From: Pseudomonadota bacterium
GTDB lineage: Bacteria; Pseudomonadota; Gammaproteobacteria; Steroidobacterales; Steroidobacteraceae
Length of the DNA stretch: 64,000 nt
NCBI GenBank assembly: GCA_021843755.1
Contig: JAKBWB010000003.1
Coordinates: 62,001 to 126,000 of the forward strand
Direction: 5' to 3'
Shown here one piece after another: positions 38,663-43,052 of this stretch (position 1 is its first letter; the number at the start of each line of letters is the position of its first letter). The position numbers were made by a program, and so were the translations under genes. The notes beneath the pieces were generated by a model. That model was given only the letters and a program-made list of their open reading frames with translations. It ran no database searches and was not told the origin of the DNA.

Positions 38663-38676
38663 TTGATCCCCATCAA
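38663..38676. promoter_or_regulatory. Consensus FNR box upstream of ubiD-ubiU-ubiV
   Basis: TTGATccccATCAA, an exact match to the FNR consensus. On the minus strand a minus-10-like TAGCGT (38641-38636) begins after a 21-base gap, the class II FNR geometry, so transcription would start within about 3 bases of the ubiD ATG (38627). The same spacing is found at the ubiT and radical SAM promoters. Confidence 0.8.
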
Positions 38677-39921
38677 TTTTCCGGTGGTCGGGCCGCGCCC
38701 GCGCCCGTGGCGAAGACCATCGGCACAACGCCCACCACCATGGCCGCCATGGTCATGAGAATCGGCCGCAGACGCACCTCGGCGGCCTCTTCGATGGCCC
38801 GCAGCTTCGAGACGCCGGCGCGCTGCAGATCGTTGGCGAATTGCACCATCAGAATGCCGTGCTTGCTGATCAGGCCGAGCAGCGTCACCAGGCCGACCTG
38901 GGCGTAGATGTTGAGCGTGGTGAAGCCGATGTTGATGAACAGCAGCGCGCCGAACAGCGCCGCGAGCGCCAGGAAGACGATCACGAGCGAGAACCCGAAG
39001 GTCATCAGGAAGCTGTTCGAGCCCTTCATGAACTGGCGCGACTCGCCGGCATAGTTGGCCCGGAACCCGCTCGGCGCCACCTCGTGCAGCGTCTTGCGCA
39101 GGAACGCGAGCGCCTGGCCCTGCGGGACCGCCGCCACCCCGGCGATCATCGCCGAGTTCAAGCGCTGGAGGCGATTGATCGCCTGCGGTACCACCGCGCG
39201 CTTCAGCCGCGCCACGGTGCCGAACTCGACCAGCGCGCCGCTGGCGGTCCGCAGGTGATAGTCGAGGATCTGGTGGGGATTCAACCGGTACCTTTGCTGC
39301 ACCTGCGGGATCACCTCGTAGGAGCGTCCGCCGAGCTCGAAGTAATTGACATAACCGCCCCCGAGGGCGGCGCCGAGGGTGCTCGCCACGTCCTGCTGCG
39401 TCAGGCCCAGGTCGGCCACTTTAGACGGACTGACCATCAGCTCGTCCTGCGGCTCGTCGATCTTCAAGTCGCTGTCGACGAAGAAGAACCGGCCGCTCGC
39501 TCGGGCCCGCGCCAGCACCTGGCGGGCGACCGAGTACAGTCTGCTGATCGGCTGGGCGGTGGTGATCTCGAACTGCACCGGCAAGCCGCTCGCGCCCGGC
39601 AGCGGCGGGAACTGGAAGGCCCCGATGCGGGCTCCGGCGATGTGATTCCAGCGCGCCTGCAGGATTTTCTGGATCTGCGTCGCCGTGCGGATCCGCCGGT
39701 TCCACGGCTTCAGCAGCACGCCGCCGAGCCCCTGGTTCACCGACGGGGTGCCCGTTATCTGGAACATCTGCCGATATTCCGGCAGCGTCCGCGCCGCCTG
39801 GTAGATCTGCCGTTCGTAGCTGCGCACCTGCTGCAGCGTCGCATCCGGCGGACCGATGAGCTGATACATCACCACGCCCTGATCCTCCTGGGGCGCGAGC
39901 TGGGATTTCGAGGTCAGGAAC
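38673..39921 (-). pseudogene. RND efflux pump permease, truncated remnant
   Basis: A broken HAE1/AcrB-family inner membrane drug pump. The remnant begins mid-protein (FLTSKSQLAPQEDQGVVM at the periplasmic start of the second half) and runs through FQFPPLPGASGLPVQFEI, LGGGYVNYFELGGRSYEVIPQVQQR and LNIYAQVGLVTLLGLISKHGILMVQFAN. It is damaged three ways: the N-terminal half is gone, an internal block expected between ALAALF and GALLFINIG (about 20 residues, the ESFRDPL region) is deleted, and the end diverges after VFATGAGAA. The Tn5-like element is inserted at its upstream edge. Non-functional. Confidence 0.85.
39913..39921. repeat. Left 9-bp target-site duplication of the Tn5-like element
   Basis: GTCAGGAAC directly precedes the left terminal repeat; the identical GTCAGGAAC follows the right terminal repeat at 42898-42906. 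Nine bases is the duplication length made by Tn5/IS50-type transposases. A perfect match suggests a fairly recent insertion. Confidence 0.9.
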
Positions 39922-39940
39922 CTGTCTATTGCACACATCT
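39922..39940 (+). repeat. Left terminal inverted repeat (19 bp)
   Basis: CTGTCTATTGCACACATCT. It pairs with the right end with one mismatch (position 10, G versus C). It shares the CTGTCT start and ACACATCT end of the engineered Tn5 mosaic end and so is recognisably a Tn5-family transposase site. Confidence 0.9.
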
Positions 39941-39980
39941 CCGGGTGACGATTGCCGACACGCGGGATTGCCATGGTGAT

Positions 39981-40412
39981 CTACTTTGACGTCGACTCGT
40001 GTTCCGTCAGGAAGCGGTGGAGCTTTCGGCAGGTGGAGTCGAACGAGAGCTGCTCAGCCTCTGAGCAGCGAGGGTATATCAGCGGTCCGTCGTCCCCGTT
40101 GAGGGTTTCGGTCAACACCTGTTTGATGGGCCGCTTGCGTAGTTCCGGATGGAAGTTCAGCTGGCGGATGACTTCTGCGCCCAGAGTACAGACATTGTCC
40201 CGGTGTTCACGCAGAGTCTTGCGAGATAATCCTTGGTCGAGGAGCCAGACCAGAAAGGGCTTGAACACATCGAGCATCCGCTCTCCTGGCTGGAGATCCC
40301 TCTGCTCGACACTCCAACGGTGTGGCCAGTGATCGACGTCCAAGTACTCTTCTTCGAACGTCGGGACAGGGTCGGTGGAGCTGCCGCGCCTTCCTGTGTT
40401 TTTACGAGCCAT
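39981..40412 (-). CDS. Transposon passenger: small integrase-core-binding-like protein
   Basis: A 143-residue soluble protein (MARKNTGRRGSSTDPVPTF). The segment ERMLDVFKPFLVWLLDQGLSRKTLREHRDNVCTLGAEVIRQL resembles the SAM-like N-terminal core-binding domain of tyrosine recombinases, but no catalytic domain with R-H-R-Y follows. YLDVDHWPHRWSVEQRDLQPGE precedes it. Last gene inside the Tn5-like element, 18 bases after the DUF4338 gene. It may bind DNA as an accessory or regulator; function is not known. Confidence 0.65.
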   Translation of the reverse strand: MARKNTGRRGSSTDPVPTFEEEYLDVDHWPHRWSVEQRDLQPGERMLDVFKPFLVWLLDQGLSRKTLREHRDNVCTLGAEVIRQLNFHPELRKRPIKQVLTETLNGDDGPLIYPRCSEAEQLSFDSTCRKLHRFLTEHESTSK

Positions 40413-40430
40413 GCGGTGGGTGCGAGAAGG

Positions 40431-41288
40431 TTAAGCGTTGCAGAGCTGTTGGCGGAAATCGCCGACAAGCGGGTAGATCCAGACGCTCTTCACCGGCTCG
40501 GCGTTGCGATGCAGCCGATCGAGCTTGCCGCGCCCCTGGGTGTCGCCGAGGCACAACCAGTTGGCGGCCTTGTAGCAGGTGCCGGCGAAGCGGGGCTTCT
40601 CGACGAAGGTCTCCAGCAGCACCGGTCGATAGGCGTATCGGAGCTGCCAGTCTTCACCCAGGCGACGGGCAGCCAGAGCCAGGACCCGCGAGGCGAGGTT
40701 CTTGCATTGGATCCATGGAAGGATGAGAAAGCGGGCGTTGTTGATCACGAGGTGAAGATTGCGCTCTCGCTGCTCGCGCGTCCAACCGATGAACTCGTCG
40801 CGCGGCTGGGTCTTCCAGGCGCTCGCACCGAAAGACAGCAGAGCAACCACCTCGCCGGCTGCGCGCACGAAGTAGCGCAGCTGCGCACCGGGCATGGGTT
40901 GATGCCCCAGATAGTGGTGATGCTGGATGTAGGCGTTCCACAGCAAGGACTCGCGCTTATGGCTGACCGGATCGATCGTCAGGCGAGTGAGATCGACCGC
41001 CGGGACGCTCGGCGGTGCGAGCACCGCCTGCTCGATCTCAGGACGAGCGAGGTACGGAGGCGGCTTGGCATTCCTCGGTGGCGGCAGCGTGATCAGGCCG
41101 TCGGTCTGCATCCGCAGCAGCGCCACGCGGCAGCTCATGTCCTTCAGGCGCCCATCGGGGCGGCGCCAGCCGAGCCGTTCGCAGACCTCGCGCGAGAGCC
41201 GCGCACGATTGAGCGCCGGAGTGGCGCCGAGCAAGGCGCGGATGAACTCAATCTCCTCGAGCGTGAAGGGGCGTCCGCAGTAGCGCAT
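40431..41288 (-). CDS. DUF4338 family protein (DruA-like) carried by the Tn5-like element
   Basis: A 285-residue protein with an N-terminal helical region (MRYCGRPFTLEEIEFIRALL, LSREVCERLGWRRPDGRLK, like a winged-helix) and a C-terminal DUF4338 core: HHHYLGHQPMPGAQLRYFV, GEVVALLSFGASAWK, RDEFIGWTREQRERNLHLV, NNARFLILPWI, NLASRVLALAARRLGEDW, and LLETFVEKPRFAGTCYKAANW. This domain is DruA of the Druantia anti-phage system, but no other Druantia gene is present. Here it follows tnpA by 3 bases, so a transposition-linked role is as likely as defence. Confidence 0.82.
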   Translation of the reverse strand: MRYCGRPFTLEEIEFIRALLGATPALNRARLSREVCERLGWRRPDGRLKDMSCRVALLRMQTDGLITLPPPRNAKPPPYLARPEIEQAVLAPPSVPAVDLTRLTIDPVSHKRESLLWNAYIQHHHYLGHQPMPGAQLRYFVRAAGEVVALLSFGASAWKTQPRDEFIGWTREQRERNLHLVINNARFLILPWIQCKNLASRVLALAARRLGEDWQLRYAYRPVLLETFVEKPRFAGTCYKAANWLCLGDTQGRGKLDRLHRNAEPVKSVWIYPLVGDFRQQLCNA

Positions 41289-41291
41289 CGC

Positions 41292-42731
41292 TCAGCTCGA
41301 GTCGGTAAGGCCCAACGCCTGCTTGGCCGCGCGCAACATCAACACGTCCTCGTACAGGCGCATCCACCCACGCCACAGCACGGTCATCCCCGGCTCCCCG
41401 TCGCACTTGCGCCCCAGGTGACCGCCCACGCGACCGATCAGACGTACCACCTCGCGCAATGTCAGCGGTTCGGCTGGCGGCAGCGCCTTGTACATCCGCA
41501 CGTGCAGCGCTTCGATCTCCTCCTTCGAGAACACCTCTGTCGCGGGCAGATCCGGCTGCGCGCGGGCAAGATACGCCACGTGCATCAGGCGCACCCCGAT
41601 GATGCTGAAGACGGTCAGGTACCGGGCCAGACGCTCGCCGGTCTCGAGCAGACAGTCCTCGACCTTGCAGCCACTCTTCAGGACCTTGTGCCAGGTCTCG
41701 ATCCCCCAGCGCCTCCCGTACCACTGCACTTTCTCGCACGCCGCGTGGAAATCCGCCACGGGCAGGTTCGTCAGCAGCACCCAGCTGACCGCTTCCTGGC
41801 CCGCAGGCGGAGCACTCTCGGTCGCCCCAATTACCCGCACGGTGATCGGGTCGGTCGAGCCGGAATCTCTGGCATGTCCTCGCCGCTGCGGTGGCTGGAT
41901 CGTAGCCTGCGCCACTTTCACTTCGATCGCGGCAGTGCGGGCTTTGCGCTTGCCGTTGCCGGGGATCGCGACTTCAAGGCTCCCCAGTACCGGGGCTGCG
42001 GCCAGCGCTTCGATCATCGTCTCCCACCCCGCGTTCTCCTCGGGCACGAGCTTGCGGTCGCGACAGGCACGAATCACATACCGTGCGCCGAGCTCCTTCG
42101 CAGCGGTGAGAAACTCAAAGAAATCCGACTCCCGATCGGCGATCGTGACGACCTGCACGCCCTTCGGAGTCCGAGCCACCGTCTCGCGCAGCGCCAGCAG
42201 CCACTTCGAGCTCTCCTTCTCCTCGACCGCCGTGCACTGAAGACGCAGGATCTTCTCGACGAACTGCTCGTCCGGAACGTCCCGACGCGCCCAGATGTTC
42301 TGGCTCACCAGCCCCAGCGGCACGCCGCTGGCCGTAAACGCCAGCGCATTGTGCATGATCAGACCCCGATCATGCGCCTCGTTGCTCTTACCGATCGGTC
42401 CCAGACCCCGGGTCTTAGGGTGCTCGCCGTAGGAAACAAACACCGTGTCCTGCGCCACCAACACAGGCCCGCCGCACGCCACCATCCGCTGGGTCGTCGC
42501 TACCATGTGCGGCTCGCGAATCGCATCGGGACTGGCTTTATCATTGTCGAAAAGCCGATACGCCGCTTGCGTGCTCGCCCAATCCCCACACGCCTCATTG
42601 ATCGGCGAGGCGGGAGACTTCCCGAGCGACTCAGCGGTCTTGATCAAGCGACGATCCAGGCGTCTGTCTCCAAGATCAACACCGAAGAACTCCTCGCGCA
42701 GCCACTCAGCCGATCCGGTGCCGGCTTCCAT
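41292..42731 (-). CDS. Tn5/IS50-like DDE transposase (IS4 superfamily)
   Basis: A 479-residue transposase, close to Tn5 Tnp (476 aa). Start 42731 (MEAGTGSAEWLREEFFGVDLGDRRLDRRL) aligns with the Tn5 N-terminus and has a GAGGTA site; a TTG 54 bases earlier is also in frame. Catalytic residues are Asp95 (VAQDTVFVSY), Asp199 (TIADRESDFFEF) and Glu345 in the YREK motif YGRRWGIETWHKVLKSG. It would cut and paste the 19-bp-ended element. All three catalytic residues are present, so it looks active. Confidence 0.92.
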   Translation of the reverse strand: MEAGTGSAEWLREEFFGVDLGDRRLDRRLIKTAESLGKSPASPINEACGDWASTQAAYRLFDNDKASPDAIREPHMVATTQRMVACGGPVLVAQDTVFVSYGEHPKTRGLGPIGKSNEAHDRGLIMHNALAFTASGVPLGLVSQNIWARRDVPDEQFVEKILRLQCTAVEEKESSKWLLALRETVARTPKGVQVVTIADRESDFFEFLTAAKELGARYVIRACRDRKLVPEENAGWETMIEALAAAPVLGSLEVAIPGNGKRKARTAAIEVKVAQATIQPPQRRGHARDSGSTDPITVRVIGATESAPPAGQEAVSWVLLTNLPVADFHAACEKVQWYGRRWGIETWHKVLKSGCKVEDCLLETGERLARYLTVFSIIGVRLMHVAYLARAQPDLPATEVFSKEEIEALHVRMYKALPPAEPLTLREVVRLIGRVGGHLGRKCDGEPGMTVLWRGWMRLYEDVLMLRAAKQALGLTDSS

Positions 42732-42878
42732 GATAGTCCGTACCTCGGGATCATCACATCGCAATCTCTTCTGCGCCTCGCCCAAACACCCTCCGCCATG
42801 CAGTGCACGGCGCAGAAGACTACCAAATCGATTTGTCTGTGTCCAGCCCCCCTTTCAGGAGACGGTGCGAAGACTCAA

Positions 42879-42897
42879 AGATGTGTGGAATAGACAG
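42879..42897 (-). repeat. Right terminal inverted repeat (19 bp)
   Basis: Read on the minus strand: CTGTCTATTCCACACATCT, identical to the left end except position 10. It lies 147 bases upstream of the transposase start codon, leaving room for the promoter. Confidence 0.9.
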
Positions 42898-42933
42898 GTC
42901 AGGAACAGATAGGCGATGCTGCCGAGCAGGTCA
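42898..42933 (-). pseudogene. Upstream stub of the disrupted RND pump gene
   Basis: The minus strand here, read towards the element, gives DLLGSIAYLFLT, which joins exactly to FLTSKSQLAPQEDQG on the other side of the insertion once one copy of the target duplication is removed. Nothing more of the pump is found upstream: the coding stub runs into a homopolymer block at 42934. The first ten bases or so are shared with the right copy of the 9-bp duplication. Confidence 0.75.
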
Positions 42934-42959
42934 CCCCCCCCCCCCCAAAAAAAAGGGGG
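42934..42959. repeat. Homopolymer block C13-A8-G5
   Basis: Thirteen C, eight A and five G in immediate succession, unlike any other sequence in the window. It sits at the exact edge of the RND pump stub, 94 bases from the end of cydC. It could be a deletion scar, a slippage-prone site, or an assembly artefact at a hard-to-read locus. Confidence 0.7.
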
Positions 42960-43052
42960 AACGGACAACGCCTGGCCGCTTCCCCCAGCCGCGGGCGGCA
43001 TGGCACAGTGCCGCGACAGCATCCGCAACACCGTCCGCCGGCGCGGTTCGGT

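Follow-up and report, generated by a model that had tools for sequence, protein, structure and literature searches.

A complete insertion sequence of the IS4 family, IS50 subgroup, was recognized by direct reading and family searches at positions 39922-42897 of the DNA stretch analyzed here (64,000 nucleotides of contig JAKBWB010000003.1 from a Steroidobacteraceae assembly, hereafter the window), and it carries a druA-like gene of the DUF4338 family next to its transposase gene tnpA. We propose, with a probability that we put at about 0.6, that druA belongs to the transposition machinery as its integral second gene and encodes an accessory acyltransferase that acts with the transposase. The gene lies inside the element ends, is retained and constrained in relatives, is coupled to several families of DDE transposases, is sometimes fused to them, and encodes a predicted GNAT domain whose active-site-like residues are conserved.

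RESULTS

A complete IS50-type element with druA between its ends

The terminal inverted repeats (39922-39940 and 42879-42897) are identical at 18 of 19 bases, and the 9-bp sequence GTCAGGAAC flanks the element outside both ends. These ends, the duplication, and a Tn5-like transposase with its DDE residues had been reported in a preliminary description of the window, and all were confirmed. Only three genes, all on the minus strand, lie between the ends: druA starts 3 bp past the tnpA stop, as also described earlier, and orfC lies 18 bp beyond the druA stop. The assignment of the second gene to DUF4338 held as well (PF14236, E value 3.1e-46). Ratios of nonsynonymous to synonymous substitution rates are abbreviated dN/dS. 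The features are as follows.

39913..39921, no strand: target-site duplication, left copy, GTCAGGAAC (direct reading; identical to 42898-42906)
39922..39940, plus strand: left 19-bp terminal inverted repeat, CTGTCTATTGCACACATCT (direct reading; genome search for the end)
39981..40412, minus strand: orfC, 143 amino acids, no known family, optional and exchanged between related elements (family searches and relatives)
40434..41288, minus strand: druA-like gene (DUF4338, PF14236), 285 amino acids without the stop (Pfam, structure model, Foldseek, dN/dS)
41292..42731, minus strand: tnpA, IS4-family (IS50-subgroup) transposase, 479 amino acids from the ATG; an upstream TTG start at 42785 is possible
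42879..42897, minus strand: right 19-bp terminal inverted repeat, CTGTCTATTCCACACATCT (direct reading; genome search for the end)
42898..42906, no strand: target-site duplication, right copy, GTCAGGAAC (direct reading)

The transposase contains the Pfam domains Tnp_DNA_bind, DDE_Tnp_1, and Dimer_Tnp_Tn5, scores 365.6 bits against the NCBIfam IS4-family model NF033590 (cut-off, 160), and aligns to Tn5 transposase structures at an E value of 2.5e-34. In an alignment of 12 sequences, D95, D199, and E345 are invariant and align with the catalytic triad of Tn5 transposase; Y338, R341, E345, and K352, all invariant columns of the same alignment, form the YREK signature (Y-2-R-3-E-6-K). The element shares with IS50/Tn5 the order of the transposase domains, the D-D-E and YREK residues, the 19-bp ends starting with CTG, and the 9-bp duplication, which is also perfect (9/9) in the relatives L037 and L004 described below. 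It departs from the habit of the subgroup of carrying no gene besides that of the transposase/inhibitor, the single gene of classical IS50, in that druA stands second after tnpA and a third gene follows in some elements. Single-gene content is usual for the IS50 subgroup but does not define it, and we assign the element to the IS4 family, IS50 subgroup, as a variant with extra genes.

druA is kept in relatives whereas orfC is optional

A tnpA match was found in 20 of the 296 genomes searched, own genome included. In 12 of 12 tnpA loci, one of them (G018) in two pieces, druA is immediately downstream; these loci are 62-100% identical along most of the protein, and the count excludes short or weak tnpA matches (G003:C67, G011, G013, G020, G038, G043, G053, G135, and G197). 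No clean loss of druA was seen among these 12 loci. Fourteen elements (the window and 13 loci) have a right end recognizable at up to 4 mismatches: in 10 of them the end comes ~50-57 bp past druA, and in the other 4 (the window, L035, L037, and L049) orfC fills the gap. The preliminary description had both downstream genes locked into the mobile unit, and had noted that they would be incidental if other copies lacked them; both genes do lie inside the ends, but they are not equivalent, the objection failing for druA and holding for orfC, which is absent from 10 of the 14. Likewise, of the arrangement for which a search had been suggested, tnpA followed by DUF4338 and the 143-amino-acid gene within matching ends, the tnpA-druA part recurs and the orfC part is limited to 4 of the 14 elements.

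Pairwise dN/dS was 0.15-0.27 for druA (10 comparisons), 0.11-0.33 for tnpA (10 comparisons), and 0.22-0.42 for orfC (3 comparisons), indicating that druA is under purifying selection comparable to that on tnpA. Target duplications were compared in the 10 elements with both ends seen (the window and 9 loci): they are perfect in 2 (the window and L037), 8 bp long with a one-base shift in 2 (L038 and L078), and absent in 6 (L035, L036, L040, L041, L042, and L050). An older relative lies on the Thiodictyon plasmid pTs485 (L004), where druA precedes tnpA, the ends match at 17 of 19 positions, the 9-bp duplication is perfect, and tnpA is broken by an integrase and IS91-family transposase pair (L004 6166-8182). 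Among 72,556 plasmid records, DruA was found in 2, both from Thiodictyon.

DUF4338 accompanies several DDE transposase families

The link between DUF4338 and transposases proved wider than the preliminary description supposed, extending to IS66, ISAs1-type, and other elements. A DruA-profile scan of genome contigs gave at least 546 hits, of which the best, at 79 distinct loci, were retained; the query was built mainly from Tn5-associated DruAs, and the set, mostly from metagenome assemblies, includes several copies of relatives already used and 23 loci from one genome, thus representing near relatives and not all of PF14236. In 74 of the 79 loci, druA has a transposase match at most 300 bp away and in the same orientation, the partner being Tn5-like in 9, IS66 TnpC in 58, and divergent IS66-like in 7 (members of both IS66 models carry the Pfam IS66 domain). 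The remaining five also adjoin a transposase frame: DDE_Tnp_1 (L086), DDE_5 (L089), UPF0236, an ISLre2-type transposase (L148), IS66 (L139), and IS66 at 328 bp (L135). Among the taxa in record titles and tree labels are Acidobacteriota, Planctomycetota, Thermodesulfobacteriota, Bacteroidota, Bacillota, and an ANME-2 archaeon.

In the genome of Candidatus Accumulibacter ACC003, DruA matches number 88 when fragments are counted. One 2.7-kb IS66-type element is represented there by 29 near-full TnpC copies, 28 of which have druA 11 bp past the matched stretch, and all of the 23 copies inspected have exact 8-bp duplications enclosing tnpC-druA. In an ISAs1-type element of the same genome, a frame with a DruA fusion overlaps a DDE frame; 9-10-bp repeats flank 4 of the 5 copies sampled from 25 such matches (L224, L225, L226, and L229), the fifth (L230) showing no repeat in a search centered on another druA piece. 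A further DruA type, accompanied by a separate DDE_Tnp_1_assoc transposase, has 9-bp repeats in both copies sampled (L223 and L228) of 19 such matches.

Once the Tn5 type is set aside, the closest relatives of this DruA are found in IS66 elements, both of the tnpC-only type (ISBst12-like) and of the tnpA-tnpB-tnpC type; these elements differ from the window element in transposase family, in their ends, and in their 8-bp versus 9-bp duplication. The order tnpA-tnpB-druA-tnpC occurs at L146 209-1889 (TnpB by Pfam; the tnpA, which has no Pfam match, is one that we take to be of the IS66 type) and, by cluster, at L108 and L111. Since this order exists, DruA is not a simple replacement of TnpA or TnpB.

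Single open frames encode both DruA and a Tn5-like transposase in L053 (659 amino acids), L189 (679), L221 (778), L222 (741), and L227 (616), the last three being from ACC003. The L221 fusion lies within ends matching at 13 of 16 positions and a 10-bp repeat; no repeat was found for L222. In L044, DruA is joined to just the DNA-binding domain of a Tn5-like transposase, and in L005, L059, and L064 it is fused to ISAs1-type domains (L005 is annotated as ISAs1, whence the name). Only the GNAT part of the DruA profile, from about position 95, is matched by the ISAs1 fusions, whereas the separate DruAs and the 778- and 741-amino-acid fusions match the N-terminal region too. Because the ISAs1 fusions match just the GNAT part, the N-terminal part of DruA may serve as a DNA tether.

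In a tree of 86 DruA GNAT domains (rows with fewer than 150 profile positions or fewer than 120 residues and identical sequences having been removed), 14 Tn5-type DruAs form one clade (100/99), and this clade belongs to a fork (88/94, not starred) in which all 37 IS66 rows of the tnpC-druA order are found. Seven of the 16 IS66 rows of the druA-tnpC order fall outside the main fork, the ISAs1 fusions form one group, the Tn5 fusions form one group, and the Thiodictyon DruA (L004) stands outside the Tn5-type clade. Partner labels change 7 times on this tree, against a possible minimum of 4. The safe reading is that DruA changed its transposase partner repeatedly; the deep order is unsure because long branches meet.

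Three side observations concern these loci. In all five sampled ISAs1-type copies (L224 1922-3750, L225, L226, L229, and L230), the 372-amino-acid DruA-fusion frame overlaps the 267-amino-acid DDE frame in another reading frame, and a programmed frameshift yielding a DruA-transposase fusion is possible. At L043 254-3478 and L045 1044-4293, three adjacent frames that by eye resemble tyrosine recombinases stand beside druA or IS66 remnants and look like a recombinase-trio element. Lastly, some PF14236 matches lie in very large frames (L193, L195, and L202, 1077-1297 amino acids; L196 and L197, 673-702 amino acids) that barely match the insertion-sequence DruA profile and are possibly DndF-like or other defense fusions. 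A separate survey of the phylum found a PF14236 match in 16 of 397 genomes. A phage origin of DruA was dropped, a scan of viral contigs with the DruA profile having given 38 pattern matches and no relative.

DruA is a predicted GNAT protein with resemblance to Mom

An AlphaFold model of DruA made from 43 sequences reached a mean pLDDT (predicted local distance difference test) of 85.9 and a pTM (predicted template modeling score) of 0.68. Mom, the DNA-adenine-modifying GNAT of phage Mu, took the first two ranks when this model was compared with the PDB by Foldseek (best, 8bv8; E values, 3.6e-7 and 1.7e-6), and further GNAT acetyltransferases followed from an E value of 8.5e-6 on. The DruA domain is, by this model, predicted to adopt a GNAT fold. 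DUF4338 has been called a GNAT domain independently, as the N-terminal fusion of some DndF proteins, in the DndF passage of PMC10853773, where the domain stands in a DNA-modification/restriction context but is joined to a defense protein, with no tie to a transposase in that passage.

At the sequence level, the Pfam family Mom (PF25680) was matched at E values up to 1 by 28 of the 43 DruAs (best E value, 3.5e-5) and unmatched in 15, and no other GNAT family in Pfam was matched by the 43 DruAs at that threshold. The best PHROG of DruA is Mom-like (E value of 1.1e-4, over 23 residues). Solved structures searched by sequence with the DruA profile gave two Vpx matches only (E values, 0.099 and 0.37), taken as chance. 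Six of the 13 positions invariant among 10 phage Moms are common to DruA, each in 43 of 43 sequences: H48, Y49, G146, Y149, N153, and G158 of Mom correspond to H125, Y126, G236, Y239, N243, and G248 of DruA. Mom S114 aligns with DruA S200, present in 42 of 43; H48, Y49, S114, and Y149 are residues with functional roles in Mom. The residues of the GNAT domain invariant in all 43 DruAs include R186, E226, and W244 besides H125, Y126, Y239, and N243. The likeness to Mu Mom comprises the H-Y, S, and G-x2-Y-x-A-x-N-[FW]-x3-G residues, the best solved-structure match, the best PHROG, and the sole Pfam GNAT match, whereas identity in the structure alignment is 16% and DruA has an extra N-terminal region and a transposase partner. 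In this N-terminal region the model predicts helices at residues 10-20, 28-39, and 50-62, and 6 of the 43 DruAs have weak PaaX matches (best E value, 0.1); we infer that the region is probably winged-helix-like.

orfC and the insertion site

In L037, identity to the window is 91% for tnpA and 87% for druA but 48% for orfC, and because of this difference orfC must have been swapped between related elements. We regard it as a separate, exchangeable passenger. Searches with orfC of Pfam, NCBIfam, and PADLOC, with E values up to 1 admitted, were negative, and PHROGs gave one match, at 0.034. Relatives were found in 3 other genomes of the same class among 369 searched (loci L181-L184); no common neighborhood was apparent by eye around these four loci, L184 lying among insertion-sequence-like frames. 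A recombinase-like core-binding domain was suspected in orfC and found to be without support.

The 19-bp end, allowing up to 3 mismatches, occurs at exactly 2 sites in the source genome assembly (3.3 Mb, 72 contigs, 96.8% complete). As these are the two ends of the element itself, one copy is seen in this genome. Promoter and terminator scans gave nothing exceeding chance. The element sits inside what is by eye a resistance-nodulation-division (RND)-type efflux gene (flanks, 38673-39912 and 42907-42940), of which one flank retains the C-terminal part and the other flank ~33 bp; since only these parts remain, the gene was interrupted and further rearranged. Just beyond the right target duplication, at 42936-42960, there is a run of C, then A, then G, where the remainder of the RND gene is absent and a gene that by eye resembles cydC, of the ATP-binding cassette transporters, comes next; the sequence may have been rearranged here or joined in assembly.

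DISCUSSION

The preliminary description had left two options for the DUF4338 gene, a transposition accessory or a mini-defense/addiction module. Transposase linkage, retention, and fusions speak for the former. In the model that we propose, DruA and the transposase would be translated from one message, and DruA would be placed at the transposase-DNA complex by its winged-helix-like N terminus or, in the fused forms, by the transposase itself. There, its coenzyme A (CoA)-dependent acyltransferase domain would modify a nearby substrate, and this modification would control when or where the element moves. The candidate substrates are a DNA base (adenine), the transposase, and a host protein, adenine being a serious candidate because of the resemblance to Mom, and either of the two proteins the chief alternative. 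If a base were the substrate, the effect could be transposition timing, self-marking, or protection from restriction. Dam methylation times IS10 and IS50 transposition, and Mom shields Mu DNA from restriction.

Several observations weigh against this model or against its link to Mom. Classical Tn5/IS50 functions without a druA-type gene, no druA was found in the fetched stretch beside a distant tnpA relative (G138, 35% identity), and conserved linkage establishes functional coupling rather than a mechanism. The structural likeness to Mom is loose (TM-score by query of 0.43, root mean square deviation of 5.3), its lead over other GNATs in the PDB search is small (3.6e-7 versus 8.5e-6), and in the Foldseek search against viral models Mom came third, after two unnamed proteins. 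The PF25680 scores given, 13-20 bits (that of the best match not being among them), are below the curated cut-off of 27.1, by which DruA falls outside the Mom family; the probability that hhalign attached to the alignment with the 10 phage Moms (E value, 6.1e-5) was 65%. The other seven of the 13 Mom-invariant positions have no shared residue: S50, G71, and E98 differ in DruA, D139 faces position 230 (E in 36 sequences, Q in 6, and V in 1), and H173, R206, and Y207 are outside the aligned stretch. Moreover, part of the shared motif sits where GNATs generally have one, and three Druantia-type DruAs (L185-L187, from the survey of the phylum) had no Mom match.

The nature of the substrate and of the activity admits several explanations. 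DruA might acylate a protein, most simply the transposase encoded with it or else a host factor, for example a nucleoid protein or a sliding clamp, as an on/off switch of transposition, its likeness to Mom reflecting shared GNAT ancestry alone; the known GNAT substrates are mostly proteins or small molecules, many such GNATs come after Mom in the Foldseek list, and the fusions put the GNAT domain onto the transposase itself, but Mom alone among the Pfam GNAT families was matched by the DruAs. We hold this explanation as a tentative but serious possibility. Rather doubtful is the more specific proposal that a Mom-like DNA-modifying acyltransferase, encoded by insertion sequences from several DDE families, would act on bases at element ends or targets, recruited by its winged helix or by fusion. 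DruA could also have a degenerate GNAT fold and serve, without catalysis, as a DNA-binding protein that bends or bridges DNA in an architectural role or in target choice, as the winged-helix-like N terminus with its PaaX matches may suggest, together with the position of the canonical CoA-loop glycine, which is N in 33 and G in 5 of the 43 DruAs. We consider this unlikely, as the polar and aromatic GNAT residues are invariant beyond the apparent need of a structural fold.

The other option of the preliminary description, that the element carries a stand-alone module for defense or addiction, would agree with the family name, with the anti-phage role of Druantia, and with a weak match to the PADLOC DruA models, and we rejected it as very improbable. 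That match amounts to 17.5 bits (E value of 4.3e-4, 49 residues), and the Accumulibacter DruA scores 14.6 bits, whereas the three Druantia-type proteins score 243-701 bits (L186 being cut by a contig end and L187 scored on its matched stretch only). No further Druantia gene, including that of the DruE helicase, lies between the element ends. Nor was a stable two-gene toxin-antitoxin pair seen, druA lacking a steady antitoxin partner while orfC is optional and exchanged independently, and the companion of druA is a transposase at the 79 near-relative loci. Thus, while both belong to PF14236, the DruA-like protein of the window, judged by these scores, its transposase companion, and the lack of another dru gene between the ends, is not the DruA of Druantia. 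Insertion sequences can carry passengers, as orfC behaves, and druA might in principle be a neutral one caught between the ends; we give this idea almost no credence, since druA has a dN/dS within the tnpA range, is kept in 12 of 12 loci, occurs with several transposase families, and is fused to two kinds of transposase.

The passages on passenger genes in a survey of the IS4 family (PMC2266710) describe putative passengers in the subgroup of the Bacillus cereus group, and state that such modularity had not been seen in other insertion sequence families or in the remaining IS4 subgroups, possibly because nobody had searched for it systematically. Our literature search, with ISfinder and subscription papers outside its scope, found no paper tying DUF4338 to insertion sequences, and none of the DUF4338 passages in PMC10853773, PMC7251935, and PMC6174562 makes that tie. 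A general association may nevertheless be known to curators.

As DUF4338 is filed as anti-phage defense, calling by Pfam alone would mistake insertion-sequence genes for defense genes. If the Mom-like proposal were true, acylation would control transposition, mark self DNA, or shield the excised element from restriction, and Druantia and DndF would represent defense branches of a domain with a role in transposons as well. The Mom-like fold makes the timing and targeting of insertion-sequence jumps directly assayable, by comparing the acylation of bases or proteins in the presence and absence of druA. Altogether, if the coupling proposed here holds, a transposition accessory enzyme would have been overlooked in IS4, IS66, and ISAs1-type elements, with dozens of copies in one genome.

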